DNA of 64,000 nucleotides from Dehalococcoidia bacterium (GTDB lineage Bacteria; Chloroflexota; Dehalococcoidia; GIF9; AB-539-J10): the NCBI GenBank assembly GCA_030610855.1, contig JAUWQY010000003.1, positions 1 through 64,000 on the forward strand. Direction: 5' to 3'. The position numbers and the translations under genes are program-made. Numbering within the stretch: the stretch's first letter is position 1; each line of letters opens with the position of its first letter. This document shows, in pieces, positions 1 through 34,857 of this stretch. Below the pieces are notes generated by a model. It was not told the origin of the DNA, made no database searches, and saw nothing but the letters and a program-made list of their open reading frames with translations.

Positions 1-215
1 GGAGGAAAACAGAATCGCTGAATGTAGCGGCTTGCGGCGCAATCTGCATGTATCTCAGCCATCATAAATATTGAACCTATCACCGAGTGGCCAGTCTTCG
101 TCGTTTCAACCAACCACGTATTATTTTTTGATGAAAACTTAAGACAGTTATCAGATTACACAGCAGGTCACACTCTGGCTGATTGTTGGGCTAAAGCTAG
201 AGGATACGCAACTGG
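1..215. other. No gene recognised
   Basis: I see no convincing reading frame, RNA gene or promoter here. It lies downstream of the PIN-domain gene, which ends at 216 on the minus strand. It could hold the end of a gene that starts outside the window, but nothing in the sequence shows this. Confidence 0.4.
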
Positions 216-791
216 TTATGCCACAAGATGAAGAATGACGAGCTCTCCAACGGGTGGGTTTTTCTGTACTGCCTCAAAGTCTGAATCGGCTGTGATGAAT
301 GTTCGAGCATGTGTTTCAGCAAGTGCCAGGTGCATGGCATCTGCTGGGCTCAGTTTGAATTGTCGCATATAGTGGGGAGTTAGGTCAACAACATGTTCCC
401 ACAGTGCGTCTCTCTTCGGGATTACCTCAATTGGTACTCCAGCACTTGACCAGCTTTTCATCATTGAACCTACAGCAGTAATCCAGCCTTCATAGGATGC
501 GAAGATTCTCTCACACCAACGTAGATAACATGTCTTGCTCCAGTGAGCATTTGGGGGTTGCTTTGCCAGTTGACAGTAAGCCAACTTGGCCGTTGCCCAA
601 AGACATTCATTTACCGACATCGCAGATAACAATATGTCAGACTTACCTGTCAGTAAGGTCGCCATCAATCTAACACACGTGGGGTACAGCCTATGAGTCC
701 TAACGATAGTTCCAACTAGAATATTCGCATCAAGGTAGACGGGAGGGTCAATTGCCATTTGTGGTGTCCAGTCAGAATACTGCATACTCAC
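216..791 (-). CDS. PIN-domain ribonuclease (VapC-like toxin candidate)
   Basis: This 191-residue protein has the PIN-domain layout of Mg2+-dependent ribonucleases. An Asp sits in the first strand (D21, YLDANILVG), a Glu at E62 (SVNECLW), and a C-terminal acidic pair at D151 and D169/D171 (SPADAMHLAL, ITADSDF). PIN proteins of this size are often toxins of toxin-antitoxin pairs that cleave tRNA or rRNA. It is the last gene of a three-gene operon: one base separates it from the preceding gene. The first possible start is GTG at 791; ATG at 785 is also possible and only shortens it by two residues. It is longer than typical VapC (about 130-140 residues) because of extra helices between E62 and D151. 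The family call is firm, but toxin function is inferred. Confidence 0.8.
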   Translation of the reverse strand: MSMQYSDWTPQMAIDPPVYLDANILVGTIVRTHRLYPTCVRLMATLLTGKSDILLSAMSVNECLWATAKLAYCQLAKQPPNAHWSKTCYLRWCERIFASYEGWITAVGSMMKSWSSAGVPIEVIPKRDALWEHVVDLTPHYMRQFKLSPADAMHLALAETHARTFITADSDFEAVQKNPPVGELVILHLVA

Positions 792-792
792 A

Positions 793-1182
793 CTACTCAG
801 GAGTGGTTACAATGTCACTTAGGTCAAGGTCAGGCATCCCATGAATGCACCCTATGTGGCGCACAAACGCTTTGAATAACTCGGGAGACATTTGCTGCCT
901 ATACTGTTCTAGGTCAATACCACCATATCGTTGTTGGTATTCCTCACCTCTTACCACTATACCTGGCGCAACCACAATCTCAGCGGGTAATTCTAGAGGT
1001 TCTGCGACGGTTTGAACTGGTTGTGGGAAATCAGATTCCCTAAGAGAAAATATGTCTTTGATTTGCCTCCAAGCAAGCGAGCCAGTATCTTCAATCCCAA
1101 GCTCAAATGGGTCTGAGATTTCTTCGACGTCACGCGGTTTTGGTAGTTGTATGCGCTCAATGGTGGCGGTATCAGTTGACAT
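793..1182 (-). CDS. Unknown 129-residue protein, antitoxin candidate
   Basis: I do not recognise this acidic 129-residue protein. The N-terminal half is rich in Pro, Glu and Asp (low-complexity linker style). The C-terminal half is more structured and ends in an acidic tail. It sits between the PIN gene and a 222-residue unknown gene with gaps of only one or two bases, so the three are co-transcribed. An acidic small protein directly upstream of a PIN gene is the usual place for an antitoxin, but no DNA-binding fold (AbrB, RHH, Phd) is visible, so this remains a guess. A G-rich stretch lies upstream of the ATG and could serve as ribosome binding site. Confidence 0.6.
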   Translation of the reverse strand: MSTDTATIERIQLPKPRDVEEISDPFELGIEDTGSLAWRQIKDIFSLRESDFPQPVQTVAEPLELPAEIVVAPGIVVRGEEYQQRYGGIDLEQYRQQMSPELFKAFVRHIGCIHGMPDLDLSDIVTTPE

Positions 1183-1184
1183 CG

Positions 1185-1853
1185 TTAATTCCCCCCCCTC
1201 TTCAAGTAACTAGAGACTGACTTGGCTTGACCCGTTTGCCACTGCCCAGCAGCCTCAAGAAATCTTCGCACGTAGTCGGTATCAAACGCAACCTCTTTGT
1301 TCTGCTGATATCGTAAGCTCAAGAAGATAAAGGTATCTGGAACTTGGCCTCTTCCATAGTGCAGGTACGTTCTGAGCAATTGCTCTTTTCCCATAGGCCC
1401 AGTTTGAGAATGTTTCAATATATCGCCTTCTGTCTGGTCAAATATCAATCCAATGTCGGTGGTAGGGTCTACCAGGTCGCTTGGCTGAAGAAAACGATTC
1501 TTCATAACAAGAAGAAGTTCGTGAAACGGTAAGGCATATGGCTCTATGAAAACGGATTCATACCAGATTTGGCCAATTCTAGGCAGTTTTGATGCACTAT
1601 TTGATTTCACCAGCTTGTCTGCAGCTATATTAATGCTATCCTCCATGGATTCCATTCCTTCTTGTATGAACTCAAAAGCCTTGATTTGGAGTACCACCTG
1701 CTGCTTCTTATCCTCTAGATTTAGAATCAGAGGCGACCCCCCAATTTCTGCTGACGGGTTCTCTCCTACGCTACGGATTATGTTGCGCATCTCAAGCCAC
1801 GGGTTGGATGCTTCAGAGAATCGCAATCCTAAGGCTGTCTTGACTAATTCCAT
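1185..1853 (-). CDS. Unknown 222-residue protein, first gene of PIN operon
   Basis: I do not recognise this soluble 222-residue protein. It is mixed helix/strand in appearance with no signal peptide, membrane segment or metal motif. It begins the three-gene minus-strand operon, and the next gene starts two bases after its stop. A promoter-like pair lies about 37 bases upstream of the ATG at 1853. Its conserved-looking features are a YLHYGRGQVPDTFIFLSLRY stretch and a basic C-terminus. It could be a sensor or a second antitoxin-like partner of the PIN protein, but nothing in the sequence proves that. Confidence 0.6.
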   Translation of the reverse strand: MELVKTALGLRFSEASNPWLEMRNIIRSVGENPSAEIGGSPLILNLEDKKQQVVLQIKAFEFIQEGMESMEDSINIAADKLVKSNSASKLPRIGQIWYESVFIEPYALPFHELLLVMKNRFLQPSDLVDPTTDIGLIFDQTEGDILKHSQTGPMGKEQLLRTYLHYGRGQVPDTFIFLSLRYQQNKEVAFDTDYVRRFLEAAGQWQTGQAKSVSSYLKRGGN

Positions 1854-1889
1854 GACTTTACACCACCTGCCTCCCCAAAGTGTCTGAAA

Positions 1890-1918
1890 GGATAAAACAC
1901 AATGGTATTGCTTGTCAA
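1890..1918 (-). promoter_or_regulatory. Promoter candidate for the PIN operon
   Basis: On the minus strand a perfect TTGACA (1913-1918) is followed after 17 bases by TTATCC (1890-1895). The -35 is ideal and the -10 is weak. It lies just upstream of the start codon at 1853. Confidence 0.45.
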
Positions 1919-1948
1919 CTGATTACCCCGCTAAAAGCAACACAGTTA

Positions 1949-1961
1949 TATAATCATTATA
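1949..1961. repeat. 13-bp palindrome upstream of the PIN operon
   Basis: TATAATCATTATA is a perfect palindrome around one central base. It lies about 30 bases upstream of the -35 of the PIN operon. It could be an autoregulatory operator, as expected for toxin-antitoxin operons, or a chance AT-rich match. Confidence 0.3.
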
Positions 1962-2026
1962 CCATTGCCGGCCAGAGGAATTCGCCTTGTCAATCCAAAC
2001 ACTCAGGCTGAGCAGTTCCGGGTTGA

Positions 2027-2070
2027 ACAAAGTGACGAATTGTGTGTCAGGTCACAATCCGTCACTTTGT
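2027..2070. terminator. Long hairpin downstream of arsG
   Basis: The arms 2027-2037 and 2060-2070 pair perfectly over 11 bp. After one mismatch the pairing continues for 6 bp (ATTGTG at 2039-2044 with CACAAT at 2053-2058). The hairpin lies past the stop of the minus-strand permease gene and could end its transcript, although no T-run follows. Its left arm resembles a sequence at 9190-9208, so it may be a dispersed repeat. Confidence 0.45.
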
Positions 2071-2143
2071 GCAGCCATTAATTAACTCTCCACGCTTGCA
2101 CTGAGGGTAGCTCCTTCTTTCAACTTCCCCAATGAACTAACGC

Positions 2144-2848
2144 TCAGCTCTGTATCCAGAGCACGACAAGGTATATTCCCACACCTATGAAGATAATGGA
2201 AACTGCCACACGAATGATTTTCTCAGCGCGGGTGAGCGCGTTAAGCCAGGTAGAAACCCTGGCTACACCAGCGGATATAAGCACGCCGAATACTAAAACA
2301 GGTAGCCCAGTGCCAATGGCATATACCGCAGGCAGTGTCACACCGCCAGCGGATTTAAGGGACAGAGGTATCAATACTCCAAAGAATAGGACAGCGCTAT
2401 AAGGGCAAAAGGCAAGGGCAAACAGAGCACCCAACAGGAATCCACCTATCATCCCCCAGTCGGCGACCTTTCCTCCTATTGAAGACAGCTTTCCTCCTCC
2501 CGAACTAAAAGGCATCCTGTTTATACTCAACATTATCACCCCTACCACTATCAGAAGTGGCCCTAGGACTTGTTCACCGAAATCCTGAAGAAATGAGGCT
2601 ACTCCAGGCACCTCAAGTCCAGCCACAATTATCAGGGTGCCAATGATGGAATAAGAAAACATGCGCCCCAGTGTATAGAGCGTTCCAGTTATAACAGCGT
2701 ATCTGCGCTCTTTCACTCTACGGCTAACATATGCTATGGCAGCAATGTTGGTAGCCATAGGACAGGGACTAATAGCAGTTATCAACCCCAGAAGCAGTGC
2801 TGAGAGGGCGGGGATATTGATGTTTCCCGTAATACCACCCAAATCCAT
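2144..2848 (-). CDS. arsG: ArsG-like aromatic arsenical efflux permease (DsbD/CcdA-type fold)
   Basis: This 234-residue membrane protein has about six hydrophobic segments. Cys-containing motifs lie in TM1 (SPCPMATNIAAI, C29) and in the middle TM (LAFCPYSAVLFFG, C148), a pattern of the CcdA/DsbD-like permeases. The SPCPxATNIAAI signature is typical of the ArsG family, which exports trivalent aromatic aminoarsenicals in arsEFG-type operons. The ATG at 2848 overlaps the stop of the upstream ArsF-like gene in a TGATG arrangement, indicating translational coupling. A GTG at 2851 is an alternative start. A GGAGAGG site precedes it. A generic thiol-reducing electron-transfer role is the main alternative. 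Debris of a second copy of its C-terminus lies upstream at 3603-3695. Confidence 0.75.
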   Translation of the reverse strand: MDLGGITGNINIPALSALLLGLITAISPCPMATNIAAIAYVSRRVKERRYAVITGTLYTLGRMFSYSIIGTLIIVAGLEVPGVASFLQDFGEQVLGPLLIVVGVIMLSINRMPFSSGGGKLSSIGGKVADWGMIGGFLLGALFALAFCPYSAVLFFGVLIPLSLKSAGGVTLPAVYAIGTGLPVLVFGVLISAGVARVSTWLNALTRAEKIIRVAVSIIFIGVGIYLVVLWIQS

Positions 2849-3573
2849 CACGCCTCTCCGCTGAGGCTTTTCTCAACCTCGCTCTTCACTACTTCGACAA
2901 ACGCCTCGTCATCACCAATGACAAACCAGATGTCTGTTACCTGTTCAATATGGTCACTGCCGTCTTTTATGGTATTAATAAACAAGGATGACGTATAGGC
3001 GCCATATTTGTTAACAATGTCAGTCTTTGCCTCGTCCTGTACATTGATGGATTGGAAAATCACCTTGCCACTAGCCAGCTCATCTTTAAAGTAGGTTTCT
3101 AGGGTATAGCGTGTCTCTTCCTCGGCGTATCTACATCTATAGCATTGCTGTGTACGGTGAAAGTAAACAACATCAACCCTGTCAGCCGGGCCTGAAGAAT
3201 TGTTTGAATTTGGCTGCTCTTGGTAGCTCACTGTGATGGTTACTTGATTCATGACTTCGCCACCGCGGCCATCAGTCACCGTGACTGTAACATTGTAGGA
3301 GCCTTCAGAGTTAGGAGCAGTCCAGGTAACCGTAGCTCCTTCCCCATTTATTCCGCCTCCGCTAGCCGACCACTTATAGCTTAGCTCGTCGCCGTCGCGG
3401 TCTGAAGCAGTACACACAATCTGGCAGCTTCCCGAAGGGAGAACTCTCTCCGGCTCAGCTTCCAGACTGGTGATAGCTGGCCGATGGTTGGCTAGCATCG
3501 TGTAAAATAGGATTGAAAGTAGCACTGCTGCCGCCACAATTCCCATAATTAATAGATATCTTTTTTTGTTCAT
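2848..3573 (-). CDS. arsF: ArsF-like protein with membrane anchor and PKD-like domain
   Basis: This 241-residue protein has an N-terminal membrane anchor (about residues 5-27). A PKD/Ig-like beta domain follows (about 31-117) and ends in a strand-rich TVTVTDGRGG motif. After a Ser/Asn linker comes an ArsF-like domain (about 132-241) with a YFHRTQQCYRC motif whose Cys pair (C144, C147) resembles a thioredoxin site. The C-terminal part matches the style of the nitrophenyl-compound nitroreductase subunit ArsF family (IWFVIGDDEAF, terminal helix). The ATG at 3573 is chosen because AGGAGAG lies 7 bases upstream; a longer frame would run into the preceding gene. The anchor and PKD domain place it outside the membrane. 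The PKD insertion is unusual for the family as I know it. Confidence 0.7.
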   Translation of the reverse strand: MNKKRYLLIMGIVAAAVLLSILFYTMLANHRPAITSLEAEPERVLPSGSCQIVCTASDRDGDELSYKWSASGGGINGEGATVTWTAPNSEGSYNVTVTVTDGRGGEVMNQVTITVSYQEQPNSNNSSGPADRVDVVYFHRTQQCYRCRYAEEETRYTLETYFKDELASGKVIFQSINVQDEAKTDIVNKYGAYTSSLFINTIKDGSDHIEQVTDIWFVIGDDEAFVEVVKSEVEKSLSGEA

Positions 3574-3602
3574 TAGTTTCTCTCCTCTGAAGTCTCTTTC
3601 GT

Positions 3603-3695
3603 TCAAGCCTGTATCCAAGGCATCACATAATATATTACCACTCTTATAAGGGTGATGGAGACTACCGTTTGAATGACTTTCTCGTGGGTCTCCGT
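3603..3695 (-). pseudogene. Remnant of a second ArsG C-terminus
   Basis: Read on the minus strand in the frame ending at TGA 3605-3603, this stretch gives a peptide beginning EKVIQTVVSITLIRVVIYY and ending MPWIQA. It parallels the end of the intact ArsG (EKIIRVAVSIIFIGVGIYL, ending LWIQS). Nothing upstream continues the frame as a permease. It is therefore the tail of a deleted paralogue left between the small Cys-protein gene and the ArsF-like gene. The preceding gene reads into this remnant out of frame. Confidence 0.75.
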
Positions 3696-3979
3696 CCCCT
3701 CTTCCCAGTGTTTCTCTTTGGATTTCCGTATTGTTGTTTATACTCCTTGAGCAGCGCCTTCGAGTAATCAGCTTCTGCACCTGGCGCAACATAACTGTAA
3801 ATTTTGACCCTTTGGAGCAGGTCTTTTTTGATAGCCTCGTCATCGGCTAGCCGGAGGTCGGCAACCTCCTTGAGAATGTTCTCCAGGTTCGCAATGTCCA
3901 CCTGGAAGCCGCCCGGCAAGACCAGTTTCTTTACCATCCTTGCCGCAGCTGCGGCACAGCATGGTTTCTCACCTGTCAT
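3662..3979 (-). CDS. Small Cys-pair protein of the arsenical cluster, with out-of-frame tail
   Basis: This 105-residue protein begins with a Cys pair (GEKPCCAAAAARM), followed by a helical region with many Leu, Asp and Lys residues. I do not recognise the family. Its place beside thioredoxin-, ArsF- and ArsG-like genes suggests the position of ArsE, but I cannot confirm this. The ATG at 3979 has an AAGGAGGTAAGA site directly upstream, so it is preferred over the upstream in-frame ATG at 4003. The last 10-14 residues (GRRPTRKSFKR) are translated from the ArsG remnant in another frame. The native C-terminus has probably been replaced by a deletion junction. Confidence 0.65.
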   Translation of the reverse strand: MTGEKPCCAAAAARMVKKLVLPGGFQVDIANLENILKEVADLRLADDEAIKKDLLQRVKIYSYVAPGAEADYSKALLKEYKQQYGNPKRNTGKRGRRPTRKSFKR

Positions 3980-4027
3980 TCTTACCTCCTTGTGTACTTG
4001 CATGACTTCTGTACCAAGGTTAATCTT

Positions 4028-4291
4028 CTACCTTTTGGTTTTATCTTCTTTAGTTAAGGCGTCAGCGATAAGGAGAGCAAGCTCGGCCTTGGTGGGCACC
4101 CGCCCAGCACAGACCAACTCTTCGTTGATTACCAATCCGGGAGTAGTCAGAATGGGATACTGCACTATTTTCATCATATCCTTGACCTCCTCTATGCTGG
4201 CATCAACGCCAAGTTCTTTCACCACCTCTCTGGTAGTCTTTTTCAACTGGTGACATCTAGCGCATCCGGGTCCTAGAATCTTTATGTTCAT
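4028..4291 (-). CDS. Thioredoxin/glutaredoxin-like small redox protein (TM0996/MTH895 type)
   Basis: This 87-residue protein has a thioredoxin-like fold with a CARC active site (C10, C13: GPGCARCHQL), a cis-Pro motif (TTPGLVINEELVCAG) and a C-terminal helix. This is the pattern of the small redox-active disulfide proteins common beside arsenic and permease genes. GATAAGGAGG precedes the ATG at 4291. It is the first gene of the minus-strand cluster (this gene, Cys-pair protein, ArsF-like, ArsG-like). It probably hands electrons to the ArsF-like or permease component, which is an inference from context. Confidence 0.8.
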   Translation of the reverse strand: MNIKILGPGCARCHQLKKTTREVVKELGVDASIEEVKDMMKIVQYPILTTPGLVINEELVCAGRVPTKAELALLIADALTKEDKTKR

Positions 4292-4976
4292 CCTTTTACC
4301 TCCTTATCAATTTCTCAAAAACTAACACGCTTTTCTCTAGGCGTCCAAGCTCTATAAGCTGGTGACAAAACCATATAACAATCCCGCCGCAGTGCAGCAT
4401 GCGATTAAGATGACATGAGCAACGCAACACCTATACCTTTTAGCTTCAAGTTGTCCACAGGTGTGGTGTAGAAACACAAGTTAACGCTATACTGCTACGC
4501 CAGAGATAACAAAACAGGTCATTGTGCAGCAATCCAGGTGGTTGTGGGCTTTCATCCTCATGAGGCGCACTCCGGACCTCTGCTTGATCCGGTGATCCTT
4601 CATACGCGCAGCGCCAAATGCTACACTATCGCTAATCTATATGTAGCACAGTTGCAGTGACGGGCAGATACGCACGGTTACGGCAACCACCTTGAGCATA
4701 GCTCCTGGTGTTTCCTACTAGGACCCGGATCAATGCAGCCGGTGCCGCGCATGAGAGCGCCACTGATAACTCAGACTCAAGAGGGCCTGGATGCCCAATC
4801 CAGTTCCTCATCTCGAAGCTGCATCTGCGTCACCGGGATCTCTAGGTCAGTGCGATGCTTCACCCTTGATACGGTTCGCGCGGAGCTCAGTAGTGGTTTG
4901 CGAGCGCCCGCCAGCCCCAGATCGCTCGGGACCGTTCCCTGAGTTCAGGACTCGCTCGATCATGGGTTGTCTGTGA
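4292..4976. other. Gene-poor intergenic region of 685 bases
   Basis: I find no coding region with a plausible ribosome binding site or natural composition. Short frames on both strands look like chance. The part next to 4291 must hold the promoter of the arsenical cluster, but I see no clear -35/-10 pair and no arsR-type regulator gene. Confidence 0.5.
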
Positions 4977-7900
4977 TCACGGCTCGTCCAGGAGGAACAG
5001 CCATCTGTCCAATGGGTCGGGGTAAGCATAGAACCTCTTCAGGTGGATAACCTTCTCGGTGGGGAAGGCCCTCTGCAGATAGAAGGGTCCGCTGCAGACC
5101 CAGAAGTGACCCTTCTCCGGGGCGGTGTACCAAGCATGAAGGTTATCGTAGCGCTCGGTCGCCTCGTTGGCATCGACGTAGTCACCCATCGTCGGCGGGT
5201 AGGGGATGTTGTCTGGGTAAATCCCTGCCCTGAAGGTATCCAGCTGGTCCTTCAGGATGGGCAGGCTCGGACCGGCGATGAAGTCCGTCCACTCGACTTC
5301 GTTAGCCGTGGCCTTGGTCTTGCCGAAGGCAAGCAGACCATCCGCCTCGGCTCCGATACCGAGGGCAAGAACGTGCCAGAAGCCGTTGCCGCCATCGTAA
5401 TCGGGCCACATGGTCGTGACCGTAAGCTCAGCATCCACATACCATTGATCGGAGTAGTACTCGACGACCAGCCCGTAGCTTGGATTATCGGTGATGAACT
5501 TCACACCCTTGAACTGGCTCATCAAATCGTCGAAGTAGTACACCGCGTCTGCATCGTAGATGGAGCTCTCCGGCTTGGCGCGATCGAACAGAAGGATCGT
5601 GTAGAGGATGAAATCGCCCATGGACAGCGTGCTGCCATCATGCAGCGGGGTCTCGAAGATGTCCAGCGGGTAGTAGCTCACCGACTTCGTCAGCGCGACC
5701 CTATCGCTGGGGTCAGGGAACCGCTCCGCCACGGTGATGAACTCCTGTGTCGTGGCATCCCAGTCGGCCCAGGCGTCGTCGGGAACGGTGATCTCAGTCG
5801 CGAAGTCAAGTGAGCACCACTCGGTGTTGATCACGCAGACTGGCAGGCCGGTCTGACACGTAACCTCGGCACTGTCGATGCGTCCCGCCCAGCGCAGCCC
5901 AGTGCGCGTGTCGGGGTGGTGACCCATGTCGCCGGTGCCGCGGATGGGGAGCGTGTCGTAGAACCGGCTGCTGCCCCCAATCGGGTTCCAGGGGCGGGCT
6001 AGTATCCCGGGCATGGCTACCCTTAGCGTGCCACCGTACGGGGAGCCGCCTTCGTCCGTGAAGTGTACCGTAAGTGCCCACATCCAGGACCGGTACACAC
6101 CGCCCGCGAGGTCAGCTGCCACGTCCACGTTGGCCTGCATCGGGGTGAACCACTCATTCGTTACAATGAAGACCCTCACAGAGTCCTCCATCGTGCCCCA
6201 CATGCATGTCTCGAACAGGTCAGCCCGCTCTTCCATGGTGGTGAAGTCGTTGCTCCACAGCTTCTCAGCCTCGGTGAAGTAGGGCTGGTCGTGGCCGTAG
6301 GCCTCCCATAGAGGGCTCAGGGGCAACACGTCGGTGTACATGAAGCCGAGCATCGGTCCTTCGTTACGGGAGATGACGGTGCTCACCCAGCCGCCGGTGT
6401 AGATGTGCCAGAGGCCGAGGTCAGGGTCGCTGTTCAACCAGATATCTGACAGCTCGGGAAGGGTGCCGTACTGTTCCGCCACGGACAGGCCCCAGTCTTC
6501 CAGCAGATCGGCGAGGTAGTCACCCATCTCGGTCCTCTCATCCTCCGTCCTGATGAGGAAGATGACCTCGACCTGCTCATCACCACCACCGTAGTCGTAC
6601 CACCAGTAATCGCCGTGATACGTGCAGCCGAGCGAGAGCATCCCCGCCTCGAACTGCAGCCAGGCGGCATCGAGCTTCTCACTCGTGTGCGCGTAATACG
6701 CCTCAACATCAGCCATGAGGGTTGGGTACCTCTCAGCCGCCTCGAAGGCGTGGTTCAAACACGTGTATCTTGGCACTCCGAGGCCACCCATCATGCTCCC
6801 GACAATGTAGTCGCGGTCGATCAGCCAGTTGATGGTCTCGCGAATCTCGGGCAGGCAGAACGGATTCAGCTTCCCGGTTGCGGTAAACAGCGGGCCTACA
6901 GGGTTGAACGTGTACTCGTACCAGTTCCCGAGGTTCTTCTTAGCCACCAGATCGGGATCAGCTAGCACCTCGGCGTAGAGTGTAGCATCCGTCACGCTGT
7001 ACGCGAAGATGTCCAGCTCATCGGCCTGCAGCAGCGCGATGGCCTCTGTGGCATCCGTCTCTTGTGTTATCACGATCTCCTCTGGGACGGGGAGACACTG
7101 TTGAGTCTGCAATTTGTAGTGCGAACGCACTTCACTGATATCAAGACAAGAAAGATATATAAAAGGTCTAAGATACAAATCGTCATAACGCATTATTACT
7201 CGATTATCAGTGTCGCACGTAGGGTTACATGCTGTATGATGCGTACATCCTGTATTCTTCTTGTCTTCAAGATCATCCAGCCCAAGAGTATGACCAATCT
7301 CGTGTAACGCCACTCTCAGGAAAGGGATTCCACTATAATCAAAATCACAGTAATCATCTGCTATCCACTTTGTCGACGCGCCTCCGGGGTGGGTATTGAA
7401 ATATATGGTGAATTGTCCTGCAGGACTATAGCCCCATAAGTACCATGTAGTTCTAGCATAAACATCACAAGGTAGTAAATCATACCACTGGCAAAAATTC
7501 GTTTCACGAAAGACTATATCAGCCTCGTCTTCATCTCCAGTTATGTCAAAAGTGATAGTATCATCCAATGCAGTTTGCCACATCAGGAAAGCATCAGCTA
7601 TTTCCTGATGAAATAAGGATTCATCGTCCTCATCACCCGGAACCGAAGCTATGTAATAACTGACAGTAACACCTGGATTCCAACGTTGTCCCCAGAAATT
7701 CCATCTAGAAAAGTGATTGGTAGAGACATGAATAACATTAGCGTTTGTGTCAACTACATAATCATTAGCTAGATGTGCTTCTTCAGAGCCGCTCAATGCG
7801 AAATAGACAGAAAGAAATCTCTCGGAGAAATCTGTTCCATCAATAAACCCATCGTCGTCCAAATCGCTATACGGCAAAGTGATTGTGCAGTTCTTGCTTA

Positions 7901-8204
7901 GAAGAATGTTATCAGGTTCTATTAGGATTGCAGGTGTAAACGATGCAAATTCGCACTTATCTGAAACAGACAAATCAAATGTGGTTTCGCTTACACTAAT
8001 AGTTATTTCATCCGTAAGAGCATCTGGCGGTATTTCGATACGCGTTCCGTATATGGAACTCTCTGGATCAGTAACCTCGAGCACTCCACCATCAGGTCCA
8101 ATCACAGCTTCAGCCTCTGGTTCCTGCGCTGTGTCACAAGATACGGGGATTGCCAGAGCCAGCAATGAAAACACTACGGCTGCTATGACTATGCCTCTTC
8201 GCAT
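4977..8204 (-). CDS. Chimeric secreted protein: ZU5 + matrixin-like metalloprotease + family 5 solute-binding protein
   Basis: This 1075-residue protein starts with a signal peptide (residues about 5-23, ending IPVSCD; a poor lipobox). A ZU5-like domain follows (about 34-130). Next is a zincin domain with HEIGHTLGLDD at about residue 302, the HExxHxxGxxD zinc site of matrixins. From about residue 385 the rest is a family 5 peptide-type ABC solute-binding protein (ITQETDA, GKLNPF, GTGDMGHHPD), with the two-lobed long form I associate with Dehalococcoidia. No permease or ATPase genes are adjacent. Base composition changes near 7,080: the protease part is clearly AT-richer (one 60-base line is about 28% GC) than the binding-protein part (about 58%). 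It ends at DEP* soon after a PDPLDRW motif, so the C-terminus may also be truncated. A fusion by recombination is likely. Confidence 0.7.
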   Translation of the reverse strand: MRRGIVIAAVVFSLLALAIPVSCDTAQEPEAEAVIGPDGGVLEVTDPESSIYGTRIEIPPDALTDEITISVSETTFDLSVSDKCEFASFTPAILIEPDNILLSKNCTITLPYSDLDDDGFIDGTDFSERFLSVYFALSGSEEAHLANDYVVDTNANVIHVSTNHFSRWNFWGQRWNPGVTVSYYIASVPGDEDDESLFHQEIADAFLMWQTALDDTITFDITGDEDEADIVFRETNFCQWYDLLPCDVYARTTWYLWGYSPAGQFTIYFNTHPGGASTKWIADDYCDFDYSGIPFLRVALHEIGHTLGLDDLEDKKNTGCTHHTACNPTCDTDNRVIMRYDDLYLRPFIYLSCLDISEVRSHYKLQTQQCLPVPEEIVITQETDATEAIALLQADELDIFAYSVTDATLYAEVLADPDLVAKKNLGNWYEYTFNPVGPLFTATGKLNPFCLPEIRETINWLIDRDYIVGSMMGGLGVPRYTCLNHAFEAAERYPTLMADVEAYYAHTSEKLDAAWLQFEAGMLSLGCTYHGDYWWYDYGGGDEQVEVIFLIRTEDERTEMGDYLADLLEDWGLSVAEQYGTLPELSDIWLNSDPDLGLWHIYTGGWVSTVISRNEGPMLGFMYTDVLPLSPLWEAYGHDQPYFTEAEKLWSNDFTTMEERADLFETCMWGTMEDSVRVFIVTNEWFTPMQANVDVAADLAGGVYRSWMWALTVHFTDEGGSPYGGTLRVAMPGILARPWNPIGGSSRFYDTLPIRGTGDMGHHPDTRTGLRWAGRIDSAEVTCQTGLPVCVINTEWCSLDFATEITVPDDAWADWDATTQEFITVAERFPDPSDRVALTKSVSYYPLDIFETPLHDGSTLSMGDFILYTILLFDRAKPESSIYDADAVYYFDDLMSQFKGVKFITDNPSYGLVVEYYSDQWYVDAELTVTTMWPDYDGGNGFWHVLALGIGAEADGLLAFGKTKATANEVEWTDFIAGPSLPILKDQLDTFRAGIYPDNIPYPPTMGDYVDANEATERYDNLHAWYTAPEKGHFWVCSGPFYLQRAFPTEKVIHLKRFYAYPDPLDRWLFLLDEP

Positions 8205-8387
8205 GATATTCCTCCTTTGCCACTCTCAGGCACTGTGTGGATAGAATAACTACATAGTCTCCAATCTGTCAAGAGGTGTTTCTAGATCCGATGCAGCGTT
8301 TACGGGTTGTTGCAGACGATGCTCATATGCCTAACAGAAACTCCCCCCTTGTACAATGAAAGTAGATCTAATACAAGGAGGTGAGAT
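8205..8387. other. Intergenic region upstream of the chimeric secreted gene
   Basis: This stretch should contain the promoter of the minus-strand gene starting at 8204, which has an AGGAGGAAT site before its ATG. I see no strong -35/-10 pair. Together with the decayed frame at 8388-8543 it makes up the gap up to 8580. Confidence 0.35.
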
Positions 8388-8543
8388 ATGCCAGACCTGA
8401 AGGCAGGCGGGCAGATCAGGGGAATACTGCACTGATCGTGAGTCTTCAAGGGCAACTACGCGGTATCGGAAGTGGCGAGGAAAAATGAAAGCAGCTATAG
8501 GTTGAACAATGTGGCTTTCTGTTACCTGTGCTGGTTGCTATGA
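8388..8543 (+). pseudogene. Decayed short frame, possible transposase N-terminus
   Basis: An AAGGAGGTGAG site precedes ATG at 8388. The frame is interrupted by two in-frame TGA codons after 15 residues, then continues (VFKGNYAVSEVARKNESSYR) to a stop at 8543. The second part resembles the helix-turn-helix start of insertion-sequence transposases (AVSEVARK). It may be the dead remnant of such a gene, but the match is short and I cannot assign a family. Confidence 0.3.
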
Positions 8544-8580
8544 GAATACATTCATCCGGCCTGACAGATTCGCAACTAGT

Positions 8581-9051
8581 CTAGCGATTCCCCTTACTGG
8601 AGCTCACGGATGCCGATGCGCTTAGCCCTATTCCAACTCTGGTTTCTGCTTCCCTTGCAAGGTTGAATCTTATCTCCCCGTGATATATTCGATGGCCATG
8701 CCATCCGATGTTAGCTTCAAAGACCCTTGGGCCGGATTGTAACTTGTCGGCGTGATGTCCATAATAATTACTAGTTCCCTTCCTGAACTTACTTTTCTCA
8801 GCTTCTGACACATCTACTGGGTCCACATCTAGGTGGTTGTCTTTCTCGTCCCAGCGCAGTACAAACTCTGGTAATGTCCCCATCGCGGCATTCTTCGGCT
8901 TCAATCTTACGATGACCAGAAGCCCCGTGGGTCCAATTTGCCGACCGTCTAGGACTATGTCATATCCTGGGTGGATAAATGTGTGCCGTTCATTTACGTT
9001 AAACGCACTACGCGCCTTGCCATCACGTTTTGTTACCTTGTTTACGTTCAT
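8581..9051 (-). CDS. Unknown 156-residue protein
   Basis: I do not recognise this basic, soluble 156-residue protein. It is rich in charged residues, shows several short beta-like stretches (GLLVIVRLKP, FEANIGWHGHRIYHGEIRFNL), and ends in a Ser-rich tail. There is no signal peptide or Cys motif. No good ribosome binding site precedes the ATG at 9051, so the start is uncertain. It stands alone downstream of a restriction-modification pair on the same strand. Confidence 0.5.
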   Translation of the reverse strand: MNVNKVTKRDGKARSAFNVNERHTFIHPGYDIVLDGRQIGPTGLLVIVRLKPKNAAMGTLPEFVLRWDEKDNHLDVDPVDVSEAEKSKFRKGTSNYYGHHADKLQSGPRVFEANIGWHGHRIYHGEIRFNLAREAETRVGIGLSASASVSSSKGNR

Positions 9052-9210
9052 GTTTTATCTAGTCTTCGTAACCACCATTATAACATGGGTGACTAGGCTG
9101 ACCGTTGCCAGAAGAATGAAAAATAGTCCCAATGGACTATTTCAGAACTGCCTCGTGATCTATGAGATTTGGCTGATCCTAAGAGTGCACAAAATGACGA
9201 AATGTGTGAC

Positions 9211-9236
9211 GGAAGTTCGAGCCTGCTCGAACTTCC
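9211..9236. terminator. Perfect 12-bp hairpin after the restriction endonuclease gene
   Basis: Arms 9211-9222 and 9225-9236 (GGAAGTTCGAGC and its complement) pair perfectly with two central bases. The hairpin lies just past the stop codon at 9254 of the minus-strand endonuclease gene and is a likely transcript end, though the T-run after it is weak. Confidence 0.5.
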
Positions 9237-9253
9237 CCTGAAACGCAACCGAA

Positions 9254-10993
9254 CTATACTACTACTAGTTTCTTCACGTCATTAAAGCCCGGTGCAGCAG
9301 TCATACGTCCTCTCAAGTCGTTCTTGGCCGTAGGGTCTACTAACGCTTTTTGCAGTGCGCTGCGTAGAACTATAATTACATCCGGACATTTCGTCTTGAG
9401 TAAATCCTCTATTCCTTTGAAATGCTTGGTTTCAATTTCTCCTTCATATGATATCACCGCACGACATCTCACCTTGGGTCCTGTTTTCTTGGCGAGTGCT
9501 GATACAAATTGCCCGTACATCATTAGTTCGGCAACGATAGACTTGTTTGGCACTAATTTGGAGCCCCATTCCTTAACGCTTTTGCATTCAACCAAAGACA
9601 GGAAGCCATTCGTAACTAATAAGTCCGGATTGGTTCTGGCCATTCTATTCCAGTGGGGGTCGTCCGCGAAATACTCGACCAGTTGACCTTGGTACTTAGC
9701 AACATAGAAATGGTCCTTTTGCAGTTGTTGTAGAAAGACATAAGTGGCTGCTTCATAATCAGATTGGAACTGATATTGTATTGAGTATGTGGGAAGGATG
9801 GCTTTGATATTTAATCTGCTTGAGAGAGCTTGGGAGCTCTCGTTGGCTTCCTCCTTAAATTTGGCGAGCCACGTATTTATCGATGCCCACTCAACATCGT
9901 GAATAATCCTAGAGGGATTTGACTTCATTCCAATGTGTGAGAGGAGATCATCAAGCTGATGCTGTACGAGTTCGTACCGTTCCGGCGGTACGTCGTAAGA
10001 CATGGAGAAATCAAACCAAGAACCATGGTCACAGATCTGCTTGATGGTTAGCCCTGTTACTTCATGAATTAAAGAGCCAATAGTGCCAGTTTCGAATAGG
10101 CCGTTTCTCGCTTCAACCGTGGCCAATTTTTTTATTAATTGCGCTTTGTGGCGTAGCTGGAGATGGTTTATTAATATGACCGCCGCTGCGGCCAGGTCGC
10201 CCCAACCACCTAGGTCAGCCCACCAAATTGGAACGCTGGCACGATAGTAGTCTAGAACAGTTTTGCCACGTGGTGTAACTACAAAAGTCCGGGTTTCCTT
10301 ATTTTCTTTGATAAGGCCTATTTGCTTGCACCAATCCATGAAAGGCATAGTATCCCTGGCGACATTCCTCTTGTGGCTAGGTGTCAGTTTTTCGAAGTAT
10401 GTCTTTGCCCATTTCGCCGAAGCGACTTTCTTCACCGTTTGAGGGAACTTTGTTTGAGGTTCAGTCAAGTCGGCCGATAAATCGGAGAGAATGGCAGCAA
10501 TTTGAAACAGGTTCAATTCTTTGGATTGGTCAAGACTGGCTAGAATAGCCAGACATAACCGAGTTCTAAGATTCGCGTACGTTCCGCCTGCTTCCTGCAG
10601 GTAAGAAGTGTTAGCAATCTTGAAACGGCAGATTCTGTCAACAAGAATCGCTTCTTCTAGTATATCGTTAGGGCACTCCTGGCTGATTTTGTATTTTGAA
10701 AGTGCTCTGCCCCATTCGGTTGGAAAATGAGCAAACTTGGAGCCGGTTCTTTTCCGATAGACTAGACCTAAGTAACGAGCGGTTTCGAGATGGTCTCTTG
10801 CACGACGCCCAATTTGGTCTCTCACCTTAGCGATACTTGCTTTGCTCAGATGTGTTTCGATCAAGTGGTCTGCTATTGCCATGTCATCGACTGCAATGCC
10901 TTTATCAACCAGGTATGCTACACGATTAACCACAGTCCTGATTCTGTGCAGAGTGTGTACCCTTGTGACGCTGGGGGCAGATTTCTCTTCCAT
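9254..10993 (-). CDS. Restriction endonuclease candidate (PD-(D/E)XK)
   Basis: This is a 579-residue protein with helical and winged-helix-like N-terminal parts. Near the C-terminus (about residues 450-470) it has a PD...ECK motif (TNPDLLV, then LSLVECKS), the catalytic signature of PD-(D/E)XK nucleases. Its start codon follows the methyltransferase stop with no gap, so the pair is co-translated in the order methylase then nuclease. The residues 235-260 region (TFVVTPRGKTVLDYY) looks like a winged-helix DNA-binding module. The recognition site cannot be read from the sequence. A type II nuclease is the best reading; a type IV or abortive nuclease is less likely given the adjacent methylase. 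Confidence 0.75.
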   Translation of the reverse strand: MEEKSAPSVTRVHTLHRIRTVVNRVAYLVDKGIAVDDMAIADHLIETHLSKASIAKVRDQIGRRARDHLETARYLGLVYRKRTGSKFAHFPTEWGRALSKYKISQECPNDILEEAILVDRICRFKIANTSYLQEAGGTYANLRTRLCLAILASLDQSKELNLFQIAAILSDLSADLTEPQTKFPQTVKKVASAKWAKTYFEKLTPSHKRNVARDTMPFMDWCKQIGLIKENKETRTFVVTPRGKTVLDYYRASVPIWWADLGGWGDLAAAAVILINHLQLRHKAQLIKKLATVEARNGLFETGTIGSLIHEVTGLTIKQICDHGSWFDFSMSYDVPPERYELVQHQLDDLLSHIGMKSNPSRIIHDVEWASINTWLAKFKEEANESSQALSSRLNIKAILPTYSIQYQFQSDYEAATYVFLQQLQKDHFYVAKYQGQLVEYFADDPHWNRMARTNPDLLVTNGFLSLVECKSVKEWGSKLVPNKSIVAELMMYGQFVSALAKKTGPKVRCRAVISYEGEIETKHFKGIEDLLKTKCPDVIIVLRSALQKALVDPTAKNDLRGRMTAAPGFNDVKKLVVV

Positions 10994-18998: not shown

Positions 18999-21116
18999 AT
19001 GAAAAGAGTAAGTATGATTCTGATTGTGGCAGTCTTGATTGCAGGGATAGTGGGCTGTGTTGATACTTATTATGACCTCACCATCTCGAGCACCGAGGGT
19101 GGCTCTGTAACCACGCCTGGTGAGGATACTTTCACCTATGATGAAGGAACAGTGGTTGACTTGGTGGCAACTCCGGCTGCAGGCTATCGGTTTGACGAGT
19201 GGACCGGCGACGTGGACACTATTGATAATGTCCATGCTGCTTTAACCAATATCGCCATGAATGGCGACTACTCTATCACCGCCGAGTTTGTCAAGCAGTA
19301 TAACCTCTCCATCAACAGCACAGCGGGAGGTAATGTAACCACACCCGGAGAGGGAGTGCTTACCTATGACGAGGGAACGGTGGTCGACCTGGTGGCTGAG
19401 GCTGAGGAAGGTTATTATTTCGTCGAGTGGACTGGCGATGTGGACACCTTCGGCAATATCACTGCCACTATAACCACCATCACTATGGACGGCGACCATA
19501 CTATCACCGCAAACTTTGAAGAATATACACCCATGGTCACTGTAGGCGGTTGGCACATAGTAGGGCTCAAGACTAACGGCACTGTGGTCGCCGTGGGAGA
19601 AAACTACTATGGTCAGTGCAATGTCGGTGACTGGACGAACATCGTCCAGGTCTCCACAGGCTGGCTGCACACGGTGGGGGTTAGGTCCGACGGCACCGCG
19701 GTGGCCACGGGAGACAATGGATACGGGAAGTGTGATGTTGACGGCTGGACGGACATCATCCAGGTTGCCGGAGGCCGGCATTACACGGTGGGACTTAAGT
19801 GCGACGGCACCGTAGTCGCCGTGGGACGGAACATCTTCGGGCAATGTGATGTTGGCAACTGGACGGATATCATCCAGGTCTCCGCAGGCTTGGGGCACAC
19901 GGTGGGACTTAAGTCCGATGGTACTGTGGTCGCCGTGGGAGACAACGAGTACGGCCAGTGTGATGTCGGTGGCTGGACAGATGTCGTCCAGGTCTCAGCA
20001 GGCAGGCTGCATACGGTCGGGCTTAAGGAGAACGGCACCGTGGTCGCCGTGGGACGCAACGGCTACGGGCAATGTGATGTCAGTGGCTGGACGGACATCA
20101 TCCAGGTTTCCGCAGGTGAGTGGCATACTGTGGGACTCAAATCTGATGGCATCGTTCTCGCCTTGGGTTACAACCCTGAGGGCGAGCTCGAAGTTGAAAA
20201 CTGGACGGACATCGTCCAAGTCGCGGCAGGCAGCTATCTCACGGTTGGCCTTAAGTCTGACGGTACTGTGGTTGCTACGGGGCAGTACTTCCGCGGGCAG
20301 TGTGATGTCAGCGGCTGGGCAGATATCTCCCAGGTGGATGCGAACGGCAGGCACACTGTTGGGCTTAAGTCCGATGGAACAGTGGTAGCCGTGGGAAGTA
20401 ACGATCTGGGGCAGTGTGATGTGGGCAACTGGACGGATATCATCCAGGTCGTCGCAGGTAGCCATCACACGGTGGGGCTTAGGTCCGATGGCACCGTAGT
20501 TGCTATGGGGAACAACCAAAATGGTCAATGCAATGTTGGTAACTGGACAGAGACCGTTCAGGTCGCTGGAGGAGGCTGTTACACGGTGGGTCTCAAGTCT
20601 GACGGCACTGTGGTCGGCGTGGGTGCCAGCGGGGATGGCCAGCTCGAAGTTCAAGACTGGACAGACGTTATCCAGGTCGCCGCAGGCGACATGCACACTA
20701 TGGGGCTTAAATCCGATGGCAGAGTGGTCGCTGTAGGACGGAATGAGTACGGCCAGTGTGATGTCGGTGGCTGGACAGATGTCGTCCAGGTCACCGCAGG
20801 CATCTATCACACCCTGGGGCTTAGGTCTGATGGCACAGTGGTCACCGCGGGAGACAACGAGTACGGCCAGTGTGATGTCGGTGGCTGGACAGATGTCGTC
20901 CAGGTCTCCACAGGCTACTATCACACGGTGGGGCTTAAGAACGACGGCACCACGGTGGCCGTGGGATGGAACGACTGGGGCCAGTGCAATGTCGACGGTT
21001 GGACTAACATCGTCCAGGTCGCGGCAAACTGGCAACACACGGTGGGCCGTAAGTCCGATGGGACCATGGTGGCCGCGGGCCCAGAGGTTCAGCTTGCCAA
21101 ATGGGATTTGTTCTAG
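18999..21116 (+). CDS. Lipoprotein with two InlB-type repeats and 14 RCC1-like propeller repeats
   Basis: This 705-residue protein has a lipoprotein signal (lipobox IVGC, cysteine at about residue 20). Two InlB-type repeats follow (about 24-175, each with FxEWTGDVDT). After them come 14 tandem repeats of about 38 residues (about 180-705) with the consensus HTVGLKSDGTVVAVG-N-YGQCDVGGWT. These are RCC1/BLIP-II-type blades. Fourteen blades would make two seven-bladed propellers. The last repeat degenerates into a different tail (EVQLAKWDLF). Such propellers bind proteins, so an exported binding or adhesion role is likely. The spacing of promoter to ATG is very short, and only a weak AAGG precedes the start. 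The repeats are highly alike at DNA level, which keeps other frames open by chance. Confidence 0.85.
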   Translation: MKRVSMILIVAVLIAGIVGCVDTYYDLTISSTEGGSVTTPGEDTFTYDEGTVVDLVATPAAGYRFDEWTGDVDTIDNVHAALTNIAMNGDYSITAEFVKQYNLSINSTAGGNVTTPGEGVLTYDEGTVVDLVAEAEEGYYFVEWTGDVDTFGNITATITTITMDGDHTITANFEEYTPMVTVGGWHIVGLKTNGTVVAVGENYYGQCNVGDWTNIVQVSTGWLHTVGVRSDGTAVATGDNGYGKCDVDGWTDIIQVAGGRHYTVGLKCDGTVVAVGRNIFGQCDVGNWTDIIQVSAGLGHTVGLKSDGTVVAVGDNEYGQCDVGGWTDVVQVSAGRLHTVGLKENGTVVAVGRNGYGQCDVSGWTDIIQVSAGEWHTVGLKSDGIVLALGYNPEGELEVENWTDIVQVAAGSYLTVGLKSDGTVVATGQYFRGQCDVSGWADISQVDANGRHTVGLKSDGTVVAVGSNDLGQCDVGNWTDIIQVVAGSHHTVGLRSDGTVVAMGNNQNGQCNVGNWTETVQVAGGGCYTVGLKSDGTVVGVGASGDGQLEVQDWTDVIQVAAGDMHTMGLKSDGRVVAVGRNEYGQCDVGGWTDVVQVTAGIYHTLGLRSDGTVVTAGDNEYGQCDVGGWTDVVQVSTGYYHTVGLKNDGTTVAVGWNDWGQCNVDGWTNIVQVAANWQHTVGRKSDGTMVAAGPEVQLAKWDLF

Positions 21117-24849: not shown

Positions 24850-25899
24850 CTACCATTCCACGTTCACTGGCATAATGACGTGAATGGTCCCGTTTTGCTT
24901 GACGACTCCTGGAGATTGGGCGTTCTTTGTCCGCAGTGTTACCGGTCCGCTTGTCCTGGCCAGCACGTCTTTGATGTAGTTGCCATCGAAGGCCATCTTG
25001 GCCTTGCCCATGGCCGGCACCGGCACCGTGATTTCGCTCTTCTCATCGGCTTTGGCAGAGACGATGAGATTCGCCTGTTTGGTCTGGAACCGCACGATGT
25101 TTCTGCTGGGCTTGGTGGCCATGACCACCTTCAAGGCGTCCTTTAAGGCCGCGCTGTCCACAGTGAGGGGCTTTCCGTTCTTGGGGATCACGTGCTTGTA
25201 GTTCGGATAGGTCCCCTCAATTAGCCGTGCCGTGAGCACCAGCCCTTCACCGACAAAGCTGATATGATGCTCGCCTTTATGAAGTGATACTTTGCCGGGC
25301 ATGAGCCTCTCGATGAGCTTTATCGCCTTGCCAGGAACGATAGTCTGCTCCGACTGCCCCTTTGCCTTGACTGTCGTTTCCGCCAGTCGGAAGCCGTCGG
25401 CGGCAGCCAGCGCTATTCTGCCCTTGTCAGGAGTGAAGCAGACGCCAGTCAGGACAGGTCTGCACTCCTCTTTCGCCATAGCATAACTAATTTGCTTCAT
25501 GGCGCTTGCCAGACCTGTGATCTCGACCGCTTTCCCCTTCACCCCCGGCACCACCGGGAAGTCCTGGGATTCCTGGCATTCAATTGTGATCGCGGCTCCA
25601 GCTTCCACCTTCAGTGAGTTTGCGCCCACCAAAGATAGGCTGACTGTTTCCGTCTTCACTGCCCGGAGTAAGATTTCCAGGTCCCGAGGCGGGACGCAGA
25701 CCGCTCCCTGCCGTGTGATATTGGCCTTGCAGCTCCCTGTTACCGCGACTTCCAGGTCAGTGCCAGTGAGCGTGACTTGCCCACCGGCCGCCCGGATGAG
25801 GACAGACGTGCACACCGGCAGAAGATGCTTCCCCGGCACTGCGGACTTGACCTTGCCCAAGGTCTCCAGGAGTGCCATACGCTGTGTCGTCGCTCGCAT
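24850..25899 (-). CDS. dnaN: DNA polymerase III beta sliding clamp homologue
   Basis: This 349-residue protein has the three-domain beta-clamp pattern. Visible marks are VTLTGTDLEVAV in domain 1, EECRPVLTGVCFTP and LAAADGFRLAET in domain 2, IEGTYPNYKHVIP at the start of domain 3, and a C-terminal VIMPVNVEW close to the usual VMPMRL end. It is slightly shorter than chromosomal clamps (about 370). It lies among small genes of the mobile element, far from dnaA, and has the element's GGGGG-type ribosome binding site (AAAGGGGGTGCTCT), so it is an element-borne clamp. It could recruit the host polymerase or a mismatch/repair factor to element DNA. Confidence 0.85.
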   Translation of the reverse strand: MRATTQRMALLETLGKVKSAVPGKHLLPVCTSVLIRAAGGQVTLTGTDLEVAVTGSCKANITRQGAVCVPPRDLEILLRAVKTETVSLSLVGANSLKVEAGAAITIECQESQDFPVVPGVKGKAVEITGLASAMKQISYAMAKEECRPVLTGVCFTPDKGRIALAAADGFRLAETTVKAKGQSEQTIVPGKAIKLIERLMPGKVSLHKGEHHISFVGEGLVLTARLIEGTYPNYKHVIPKNGKPLTVDSAALKDALKVVMATKPSRNIVRFQTKQANLIVSAKADEKSEITVPVPAMGKAKMAFDGNYIKDVLARTSGPVTLRTKNAQSPGVVKQNGTIHVIMPVNVEW

Positions 25900-31315: not shown

Positions 31316-32002
31316 TCAATCTTCCTTGCTCCAGAGTTTCTGATACCATTCTTGATGTTCTGTGCCTGATATCTTTCGATACCGGGCTGTAGTGTTGAAG
31401 CTTTGGTGGCCTAAATGCTCCTGAAGAAGCCGCAGCCCGTCGCCTGAATCATCAAGTTTTACTGCATGGACTGCGAAGGCATCGCGCAATCGGTGCGGGC
31501 TGACGTTATGAACTCTTCCGGTCTCAGGATTCACAAGCTTTGGTAGACCTGCTCTTTCAGCACAGGTACGGACTATCTGCCAACCTCGATGCCGGTTTAT
31601 TCCGAAGATAAACAACTTACCGTCTCTGGATACCGGGCCGTCGCGTCCGATGTACTCCTTCAGCATGCCCAAAGTACCACTGTCTACCGGCAGCACCCTC
31701 TGCCGACGACGTTCCTGTTCCTCAGCCTGAGCCTTGTCAATCATGCTCCCGCACTTGGGGCAAAATGCGTGGCTTCTGCCCAGTCTCTGTCCACACTCGC
31801 TACACGATAGTTTTAGGCGAGCTTTGAGGTGTTTGATTGTGACTATGTCATGTTCAAAGTCCACATCTTCAACAGTCAAAGCTAGAGCCTCACTGATTCG
31901 GCAACCAAGATGGAATAACACGCGGATCAACAGCCTATCCCTCACAGTGGTGGCTGCCCTCTCCATCAGAGTTACCTCGTGTGGTTCAACGTAGGCTTTC
32001 AT
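31316..32002 (-). CDS. Tyrosine recombinase catalytic domain with inserted zinc ribbon
   Basis: This 228-residue protein is a tyrosine recombinase core. It has the first Arg in LGCRISEAL, the H-x-x-R box in SPHRLRDAFAVH, a HLGHQSFNTTARY box with the nucleophile Tyr, and a KHLKA stretch for the catalytic Lys. Between them lies CSECGQRLGRSHAFCPKCG, a four-Cys zinc ribbon (about residues 69-87) that is not part of the normal fold. The N-terminal core-binding domain is absent. It may act on element DNA (resolution, inversion or integration) together with the HTH_17 protein encoded just upstream. It is distinct from the 383-residue integrase at 33545. Confidence 0.85.
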   Translation of the reverse strand: MKAYVEPHEVTLMERAATTVRDRLLIRVLFHLGCRISEALALTVEDVDFEHDIVTIKHLKARLKLSCSECGQRLGRSHAFCPKCGSMIDKAQAEEQERRRQRVLPVDSGTLGMLKEYIGRDGPVSRDGKLFIFGINRHRGWQIVRTCAERAGLPKLVNPETGRVHNVSPHRLRDAFAVHAVKLDDSGDGLRLLQEHLGHQSFNTTARYRKISGTEHQEWYQKLWSKED

Positions 32003-32015
32003 TCTTTCTTGTCTG

Positions 32016-32210
32016 TTACCTCTCTCCTAGGCTTGCCGGACATTTAGCAGCTTGAGCATCTATCGCCTCACTGATTGCCTCCTGTAACCAATAGGCATCT
32101 GCCCGCCGATAATTGCCTCCAATGGCCAGTGCCAGACACATGGCAGGCCACAGCGCCGAACCTACGGGCGCTAGCAATCGCACCCCAGCTGGCGGGTGGA
32201 TTTGATGCAA
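32016..32210 (-). CDS. Possible small protein between excisionase and recombinase
   Basis: This is a 64-residue frame starting with TTG, with a natural-looking C-terminal part (IGGNYRRADAYWLQEAISEA). It could encode a small helical protein in the excisionase-recombinase operon. The start lacks a good ribosome binding site. A second overlapping frame from ATG 32271 exists. Low confidence. Confidence 0.3.
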   Translation of the reverse strand: MHQIHPPAGVRLLAPVGSALWPAMCLALAIGGNYRRADAYWLQEAISEAIDAQAAKCPASLGER

Positions 32211-32257
32211 CAGCCGATCTCTGCGAGAAACTAGTCACATAGGGTAGCCCTTTCAGG

Positions 32258-32497
32258 CTAATGTGGTTCATCCTGTCCCTCCCTCGTCACTTGGTTTTCG
32301 TTCGCCTTGCCTGCTGAAGACAAGAATTCCTCCAGCGCCTTCCGGGGGACAACGAGGCGCCGTTGTCCAATGCGAATCGCTGGAATGCCTCCGCTGTTGG
32401 CTAAGAGATACGCTGTACCACGGCTAATGCCCAGTATTTTTGCAGTTTCCTCGACAGTGAAAACTAATCGGTCAATCTTCCCGCGGTCAGTCTCCAT
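32258..32497 (-). CDS. Excisionase-type helix-turn-helix protein (HTH_17/MerR-like)
   Basis: This 79-residue protein has the FTVEETAKILGISRGTAYLL helix-turn-helix of excisionases (HTH_17), followed by a wing with IPAIRIGQRRLVVPRKALEEF. Such proteins bend attachment-site DNA or regulate the integrase. AGGAGG lies six bases before the ATG at 32497; an ATG at 32503 is too close to it. The gene diverges from the integrase operon across a shared control region. Confidence 0.85.
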   Translation of the reverse strand: METDRGKIDRLVFTVEETAKILGISRGTAYLLANSGGIPAIRIGQRRLVVPRKALEEFLSSAGKANENQVTREGQDEPH

Positions 32498-32514
32498 TTT
32501 CATCCTCCTGGTAG

Positions 32515-32544
32515 TTGACTAGAGCCATCACTATGTATTATAAT
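32515..32544 (+). promoter_or_regulatory. Integrase-operon promoter with shared palindromic -10
   Basis: TTGACT (32515-32520), an 18-base spacer and TATAAT (32539-32544) point toward the gene at 32617. The -10 is part of the palindrome ATTATAAT, so it also reads TATAAT toward the excisionase gene (32537-32542). Two TTACCA repeats lie about 15-30 bases downstream, at 32559-32564 and 32569-32574, and could be operators. Confidence 0.55.
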
Positions 32545-32616
32545 TGAGACTAATAGGACTTACCAGGTTTACCATTAGGAACAACAATCACGCATTTTAG
32601 GAATTAGAGGAATAGC

Positions 32617-34696: not shown

Positions 34697-34726
34697 CATA
34701 TTATTAGCAAAACGACAAGAATAAGC

Positions 34727-34761
34727 CCCCTGTTCACAGAATTTAGCTTCAAAACAGGGGG
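34727..34761. terminator. Bidirectional terminator between integrase and tRNA-Glu
   Basis: CCCCCTGTT (34727-34735) and AACAGGGGG (34753-34761) form a perfect 9-bp stem with a 17-base loop. It can end both the integrase transcript (plus) and the tRNA transcript (minus, followed by CTTATTCTT). Confidence 0.65.
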
Positions 34762-34773
34762 TGGCCTTATCAT

Positions 34774-34850: not shown

Positions 34851-34857
34851 GCACTAG

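Follow-up and report, generated by a model that had tools for sequence, protein, structure and literature searches.

In Shewanella, ArsE and ArsF reportedly reduce nitroaromatic arsenicals while ArsG exports the trivalent aminoaryl product, a scheme said to go back to Chen, Zhang and Rosen in 2019. Where ars genes are listed in PMC9144182, ArsG stands among the efflux transporters, and ArsE and ArsF are assigned to organoarsenical resistance. In a search of the literature on ArsG together with CcdA or SAO, the sole relevant match was the study of Castillo and Saier (2010), who described eight ars operons containing CcdA, a thioredoxin and redox-active disulphide protein 2, envisaged ArsC as acceptor, and considered a transmembrane flow of electrons, which they judged less likely (PMC2963123). 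The idea of a relay had in this sense been half-voiced already in 2010.

The window analyzed here is a stretch of 64,000 nucleotides from an uncultured Chloroflexota (Dehalococcoidia) organism, represented by a metagenome-assembled genome (MAG) of 76 contigs that is 95% complete. Like the Shewanella ArsEFG system, it encodes three proteins that pass the models so named, with arsF and arsG coupled; it differs by a PKD domain between the membrane anchor and the ArsF domain, an extra CC-motif gene and the lack of a local arsR, and it is known here from sequence alone. Its likeness to the CcdA/DsbD relay lies in ArsG, which exceeds the DsbD_2 and DsbD_TM cut-offs and whose cysteine in the first transmembrane segment (TM1) aligns, and in the thioredoxin partners on either side; ArsG differs in that its second cysteine precedes a proline and in its linkage to ars genes. 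Single-chain ArsF-ArsG proteins of other genomes recall DsbD, although in these the thioredoxin domain comes before the membrane part. The three gene types of the 2010 study are the same by description, whereas the evidence from ArsF secretion and from fusions is absent there (PMC2963123).

Layout and family assignment of the cassette

Four genes occupy positions 2144-4291 of the window, all on the minus strand and transcribed in the order arsE, CC-motif gene, PKD-arsF fusion and arsG, so that the coupled arsF-arsG pair accompanied by a CxxC thioredoxin and a CC-motif protein, as the initial annotation had described it, is upheld. The first gene (4028-4291) encodes a small thioredoxin-like protein with a CxxC motif (CARC), matching the NCBIfam model TIGR00412, 'MTH895/ArsE family' (98.7 bits, cut-off 62), and Thioredoxin_3 of Pfam (90.3 bits). 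Because this thioredoxin belongs to the ArsE family, arsE, arsF and arsG are all three present. The third gene, arsF (2848-3573), encodes 241 amino acids, of which residues 133-235 (2869-3177), a thioredoxin-like domain with its CxxC cysteines C144 and C147 at 3133-3144, match the ArsF model NF040494 (91.7 bits, cut-off 60). The last, arsG (2144-2851), encodes a CcdA-like membrane protein that matches the equivalog ArsG model NF040495 (271.9 bits, cut-off 200) as well as DsbD_2 (69.6 bits, cut-off 24.9) and DsbD_TM (40.8 bits, cut-off 27.1) of Pfam. With each of the three proteins above its curated NCBIfam cut-off, including the ArsF domain and the permease for which such a profile comparison had been proposed, the cassette is assigned by sequence to the ArsEFG type, as had been supposed. 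The product of the second gene (MTGEKPCCAAAAARM..., 3662-3979) matched no curated NCBIfam or Pfam family above cut-off; in congeners its homologues likewise sit between arsE and arsF, and a homologue is also encoded in a euryarchaeotal ars locus (L081:3098-3358).

The arsF stop codon overlaps the ATG of arsG (TGATG), and this ATG at 2848 is more likely to be the start of arsG than the GTG at 2851. For arsF, the ATG at 3573, which provides residue 1 of the anchor, is the likely start, matching the aligned relatives; the open reading frame 2848-3843 over-reads the gene. The CC-motif gene most likely begins with the ATG at 3979 behind AAGGAGG, although its open reading frame extends to 4003. A promoter scan gave no excess over shuffled sequences, and a terminator scan gave six candidates, mostly intragenic, where 2.2 were expected.

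The genes flanking the cassette (1185-1853 and 4977-8204) are non-ars; the latter encodes a 1075-aa secreted protein with a match to a matrixin-like metallopeptidase and one to a family-5 solute-binding domain. Further along the window, another secreted protein (18999-21116) carries many RCC1-type repeats behind InlB-like B repeats, the former with a 114-nt unit reported in 12 overlapping copies. A gene for the DNA polymerase III beta-clamp and two phage-type integrases (24850-25899 and 31316-34928), one integrase having its end at 34696 beside tRNA-Glu and tRNA-Gln (34774-34928), may represent an integrated element. A search of 8000-35200 for attachment-type repeats of 24 bases or longer found none.

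The PKD segment of ArsF

The hydrophobic N-terminal anchor of ArsF (residues 6-28, 3490-3558), recognized from the sequence and from its sharing with a PKD protein and with the ArsF of a congener, G012, is followed by a PKD/Ig-like domain (residues about 30-116, 3226-3486, or about 43-116 when delimited more narrowly) above the Pfam cut-offs for PKD (32.3 against 23.5 bits), Big_9 (37.7 against 23.6) and PKD_4 (29.9 against 27). Full-length ArsF gave only PKD/Ig matches among the best 60 against the PDB. The initial annotation had singled out an ArsF tethered outside the membrane behind such a domain, of which the PKD/Ig insert proved real and unusual, whereas tethering is the family norm: by a simple hydropathy test, 101 of 102 ArsF homologues carry an N-terminal hydrophobic signal or anchor, and about half of the 102 have a lipobox-like motif.

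In relatives, a separate anchored protein, mostly of about three PKD repeats, is encoded beside arsG. These stand-alone proteins have no ArsF domain, but their anchor and first PKD repeat are 64-77% identical to the N-terminal part of the window ArsF. A PKD protein of this genome itself, on contig C11 (C11:14551-15465), is 76% identical to residues 1-115, which comprise anchor and PKD. ArsF thus gained a neighboring gene's anchor together with its first PKD repeat, through gene fusion or recombination, and the acquired segment may act as a spacer holding ArsF.

As the MAG consists of 76 contigs and contains this 76% identical segment elsewhere, the fusion might be suspected to be an assembly chimera. 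This is extremely unlikely, since the fusion recurs in two further MAGs, with an anchor and PKD segment 97.6% identical over 126 residues in G005 and 72% identical in G019, arsF and arsG remaining adjacent in both. In G012, ArsF is carried on the same type of anchor without PKD. In the ArsG tree the window protein and those of G005, G019 and G012 group with their congeners, with an unresolved branching order. The PKD-ArsF protein is a lineage-specific variant, and the fusion by itself is a modest domain-shuffling event.

Arsenic gene neighborhoods

An ArsF match was present in 50 of 149 related genomes. To describe the surroundings of arsG, 80 named loci were considered from Chloroflexota, Bacteroidota, Omnitrophota, Patescibacteria, archaea and others, many of which end at contig edges. 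Most contained arsF (76/80) and arsE (68/80), an ArsP permease was encoded in 64 and an ACR3 transporter in 28, and ArsP, ACR3 or ArsM lay within about 6 kb in 71 of the 80, a count from which ArsR matches were left out. The arsenical link claimed for the cassette is therefore backed by conserved ars neighborhoods as well as by the curated profiles. Among plasmids, the search returned three matches, one of them a Prevotella ars cluster whose annotation lists arsF, arsG, a thioredoxin, a permease, arsC and ACR3 consecutively; no ArsG was found on the Shewanella ANA-3 plasmid.

In congeners a single large cluster holds arsR, arsP, arsE, the CC-motif gene, a gene for an Fe-S protein of 180 aa, one for an ACR3 transporter (361.9 bits in G010, equivalog cut-off 282.8), arsF and arsG, with somewhat varying order and content; genes for the anchored PKD protein and for a thioredoxin-like protein of the membrane also belong to it. 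In the genome studied here this type of cluster appears to be split over contigs C11, C32 and C37, one piece being the present arsE-CC-arsF-arsG cassette. Contig C11 carries arsR, arsP and arsE2 along with the PKD protein, and contig C32 an arsenite methyltransferase (344.2 against 263 bits) and a second ArsP; no ACR3 was found in this 95% complete MAG by a search run without a positive control. The ars context of the cassette thus comes from congeners and from C11 and C32, not from its immediate neighbors. The initial annotation had noted that arsR was missing, which is correct for positions 1-10000 and does not extend to the genome: the absence is local because the cluster appears to be split, and a regulator gene lies with arsP on C11. 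A local ArsR is usual in ArsG loci (59/80, with a broad ArsR profile) and is no requirement for ArsEFG membership.

Tandem arsF paralogues, up to four, were observed in L050 (G072:C31) and also in G079 and G082; some of them are without the second CxxC cysteine, and those of L050 lie near a CcdA/TlpA pair.

Cysteines, predicted folds and a putative transmembrane thiol relay

The window ArsG has only two cysteines, C30 (2762-2764) in TM1 within the motif SPC and C149 (2405-2407) in TM4 within FCP. Neither varies in any of 98 true ArsG proteins, the search patterns for related loci having contained the cysteine motifs, and both are present in all 28 ArsG proteins found through ArsF only, without ArsG motifs. 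The set of 98 was obtained after dropping three apparent ArsG proteins without C149, which were CcdA proteins drawn in by the iterated profile. The resulting ArsG signature, PC...CP, is distinct from the PC...PC of CcdA. The CxxC motif of ArsE was found in 88 of 93 homologues and that of ArsF in 91 of 102; among aligned ArsF domains C144 is conserved in 103/103 and C147 in 92/103. ArsE lacks a signal sequence and is expected in the cytosol. ArsE inside, ArsF outside and the cysteine motifs together correspond to the layout of a DsbD/CcdA relay.

Compared with CcdA, ArsG aligned over 203 columns with an hhalign E-value of 5.6e-9; the ArsG profile gave chance matches only against PDB sequences. 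A structural model of the window ArsG, built from 13 close homologues, reached a mean pLDDT of 49 and was set aside as poor. An AlphaFold2 model of an ArsF-ArsG fusion protein, based on 144 sequences, had a mean pLDDT of 86.5 and a pTM of 0.73, and Foldseek placed thioredoxins and the CcdA structure 5vkv among its closest solved folds, the latter over 224 columns with a probability of 1.00, a weak E-value of 0.021 and a TMt of 0.45. Such folds, and the DsbD_2 and DsbD_TM scores of ArsG, would also fit a general envelope disulphide-reductase module of the CcdA kind, unrelated to arsenic and merely located near ars genes. That is improbable given that linkage to arsR, arsP, ACR3 and arsM is conserved across phyla, that a separate CcdA/TlpA pair is encoded on C32 of this genome, and that the ArsG signature differs from that of CcdA.

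Seven genomes from a single actinomycetotal class (L083:5482-6666, L094:5512-6678, L141, L142, L143, L145 and L147) encode single-chain proteins consisting of a signal, an ArsF domain and an ArsG domain; the fusion protein modeled above exceeds both the ArsF and the ArsG NCBIfam cut-off. In two genomes of the same class ArsF and ArsG are separate proteins, and the seven fusions probably stem from one event.

The scheme adopted by the initial annotation, reduction followed by export with ArsG as the pump, is not the best fit to this anatomy, as ArsG is of the CcdA type and occurs in one chain with ArsF. Under that scheme ArsE and ArsF would serve as a nitroreductase for aromatic arsenicals and ArsG as the exporter of the trivalent aminoaryl product, with the CcdA ancestry of ArsG being mere history and its cysteine pair a binding site for As(III). 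In its favor are the equivalog ArsG model, the names of the families and the published placement of the three proteins cited above; in addition, the pair of thiols that R-As(III) binds could come from C30 and C149. We nevertheless regard it as rather unlikely: ArsF is secreted or anchored in nearly all homologues, across the membrane from ArsE, which would be odd for a two-subunit cytosolic nitroreductase; most ArsG loci already encode a separate ArsP permease; the ArsF-ArsG fusions mimic DsbD; and the range includes sediment archaea and Patescibacteria, where synthetic nitroarsenicals are presumably unlikely.

We consider that the cluster probably works as a dedicated DsbD/CcdA-like transmembrane thiol-electron relay rather than as a reductase plus pump. 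Cytosolic ArsE would give reducing equivalents through its CxxC motif to ArsG, which would hand electrons by way of its TM1 and TM4 cysteines to ArsF on the outer face, where the thioredoxin-fold CxxC domain would reduce an arsenical or a thiol-bound adduct; export would be left to partner ArsP and ACR3-type permeases. Here we infer the outward direction of electron flow, the role of ArsG as a conduit instead of a pump, and the substrate. The relay finds support in the assignment of ArsE, ArsF and ArsG at curated cut-offs, the alignment of ArsG with CcdA, the invariant ArsG cysteines, the anchoring of ArsF, the single-chain ArsF-ArsG fusions, an ArsP-ArsF fusion described below, the predicted folds and the ars neighborhoods. 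Several observations speak against it: the two ArsG cysteines might just as well serve a pump by binding a trivalent organoarsenical, the Foldseek E-values are weak (about 0.02), some ArsF paralogues are without the second cysteine, and ArsG has been named an efflux permease in print. Moreover, the second ArsG cysteine stands before the proline (FCP) and that of CcdA after it (TPC), a shift of two residues, so ArsG may not retain CcdA chemistry and the redox geometry may differ.

For the family as a whole the data favor the relay, which is unproven. A broader proposal, which we advance tentatively and hold to be possible rather than probable, is that ArsEFG throughout its range is a DsbD-like relay powering extracellular reduction of arsenicals or metalloid-thiols, in which ArsG is no pump, resistance to roxarsone is a side effect, the natural role is ancient and anaerobic in bacteria and archaea, and the PKD-tethered ArsF is a spacer variant. 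Across many phyla ArsG carries the annotation of arsenical efflux permease; if it is a conduit, many of these annotations mislead, and organoarsenical detoxification would then include a reduction step outside the cell.

A different fusion was observed in a Shapirobacteria MAG (L106:2506-3858), where an ArsP-like permease carries a C-terminal ArsF domain, an arrangement suggesting that ArsF acts alongside export. The ArsF-ArsG and ArsP-ArsF proteins are compact, testable constructs.
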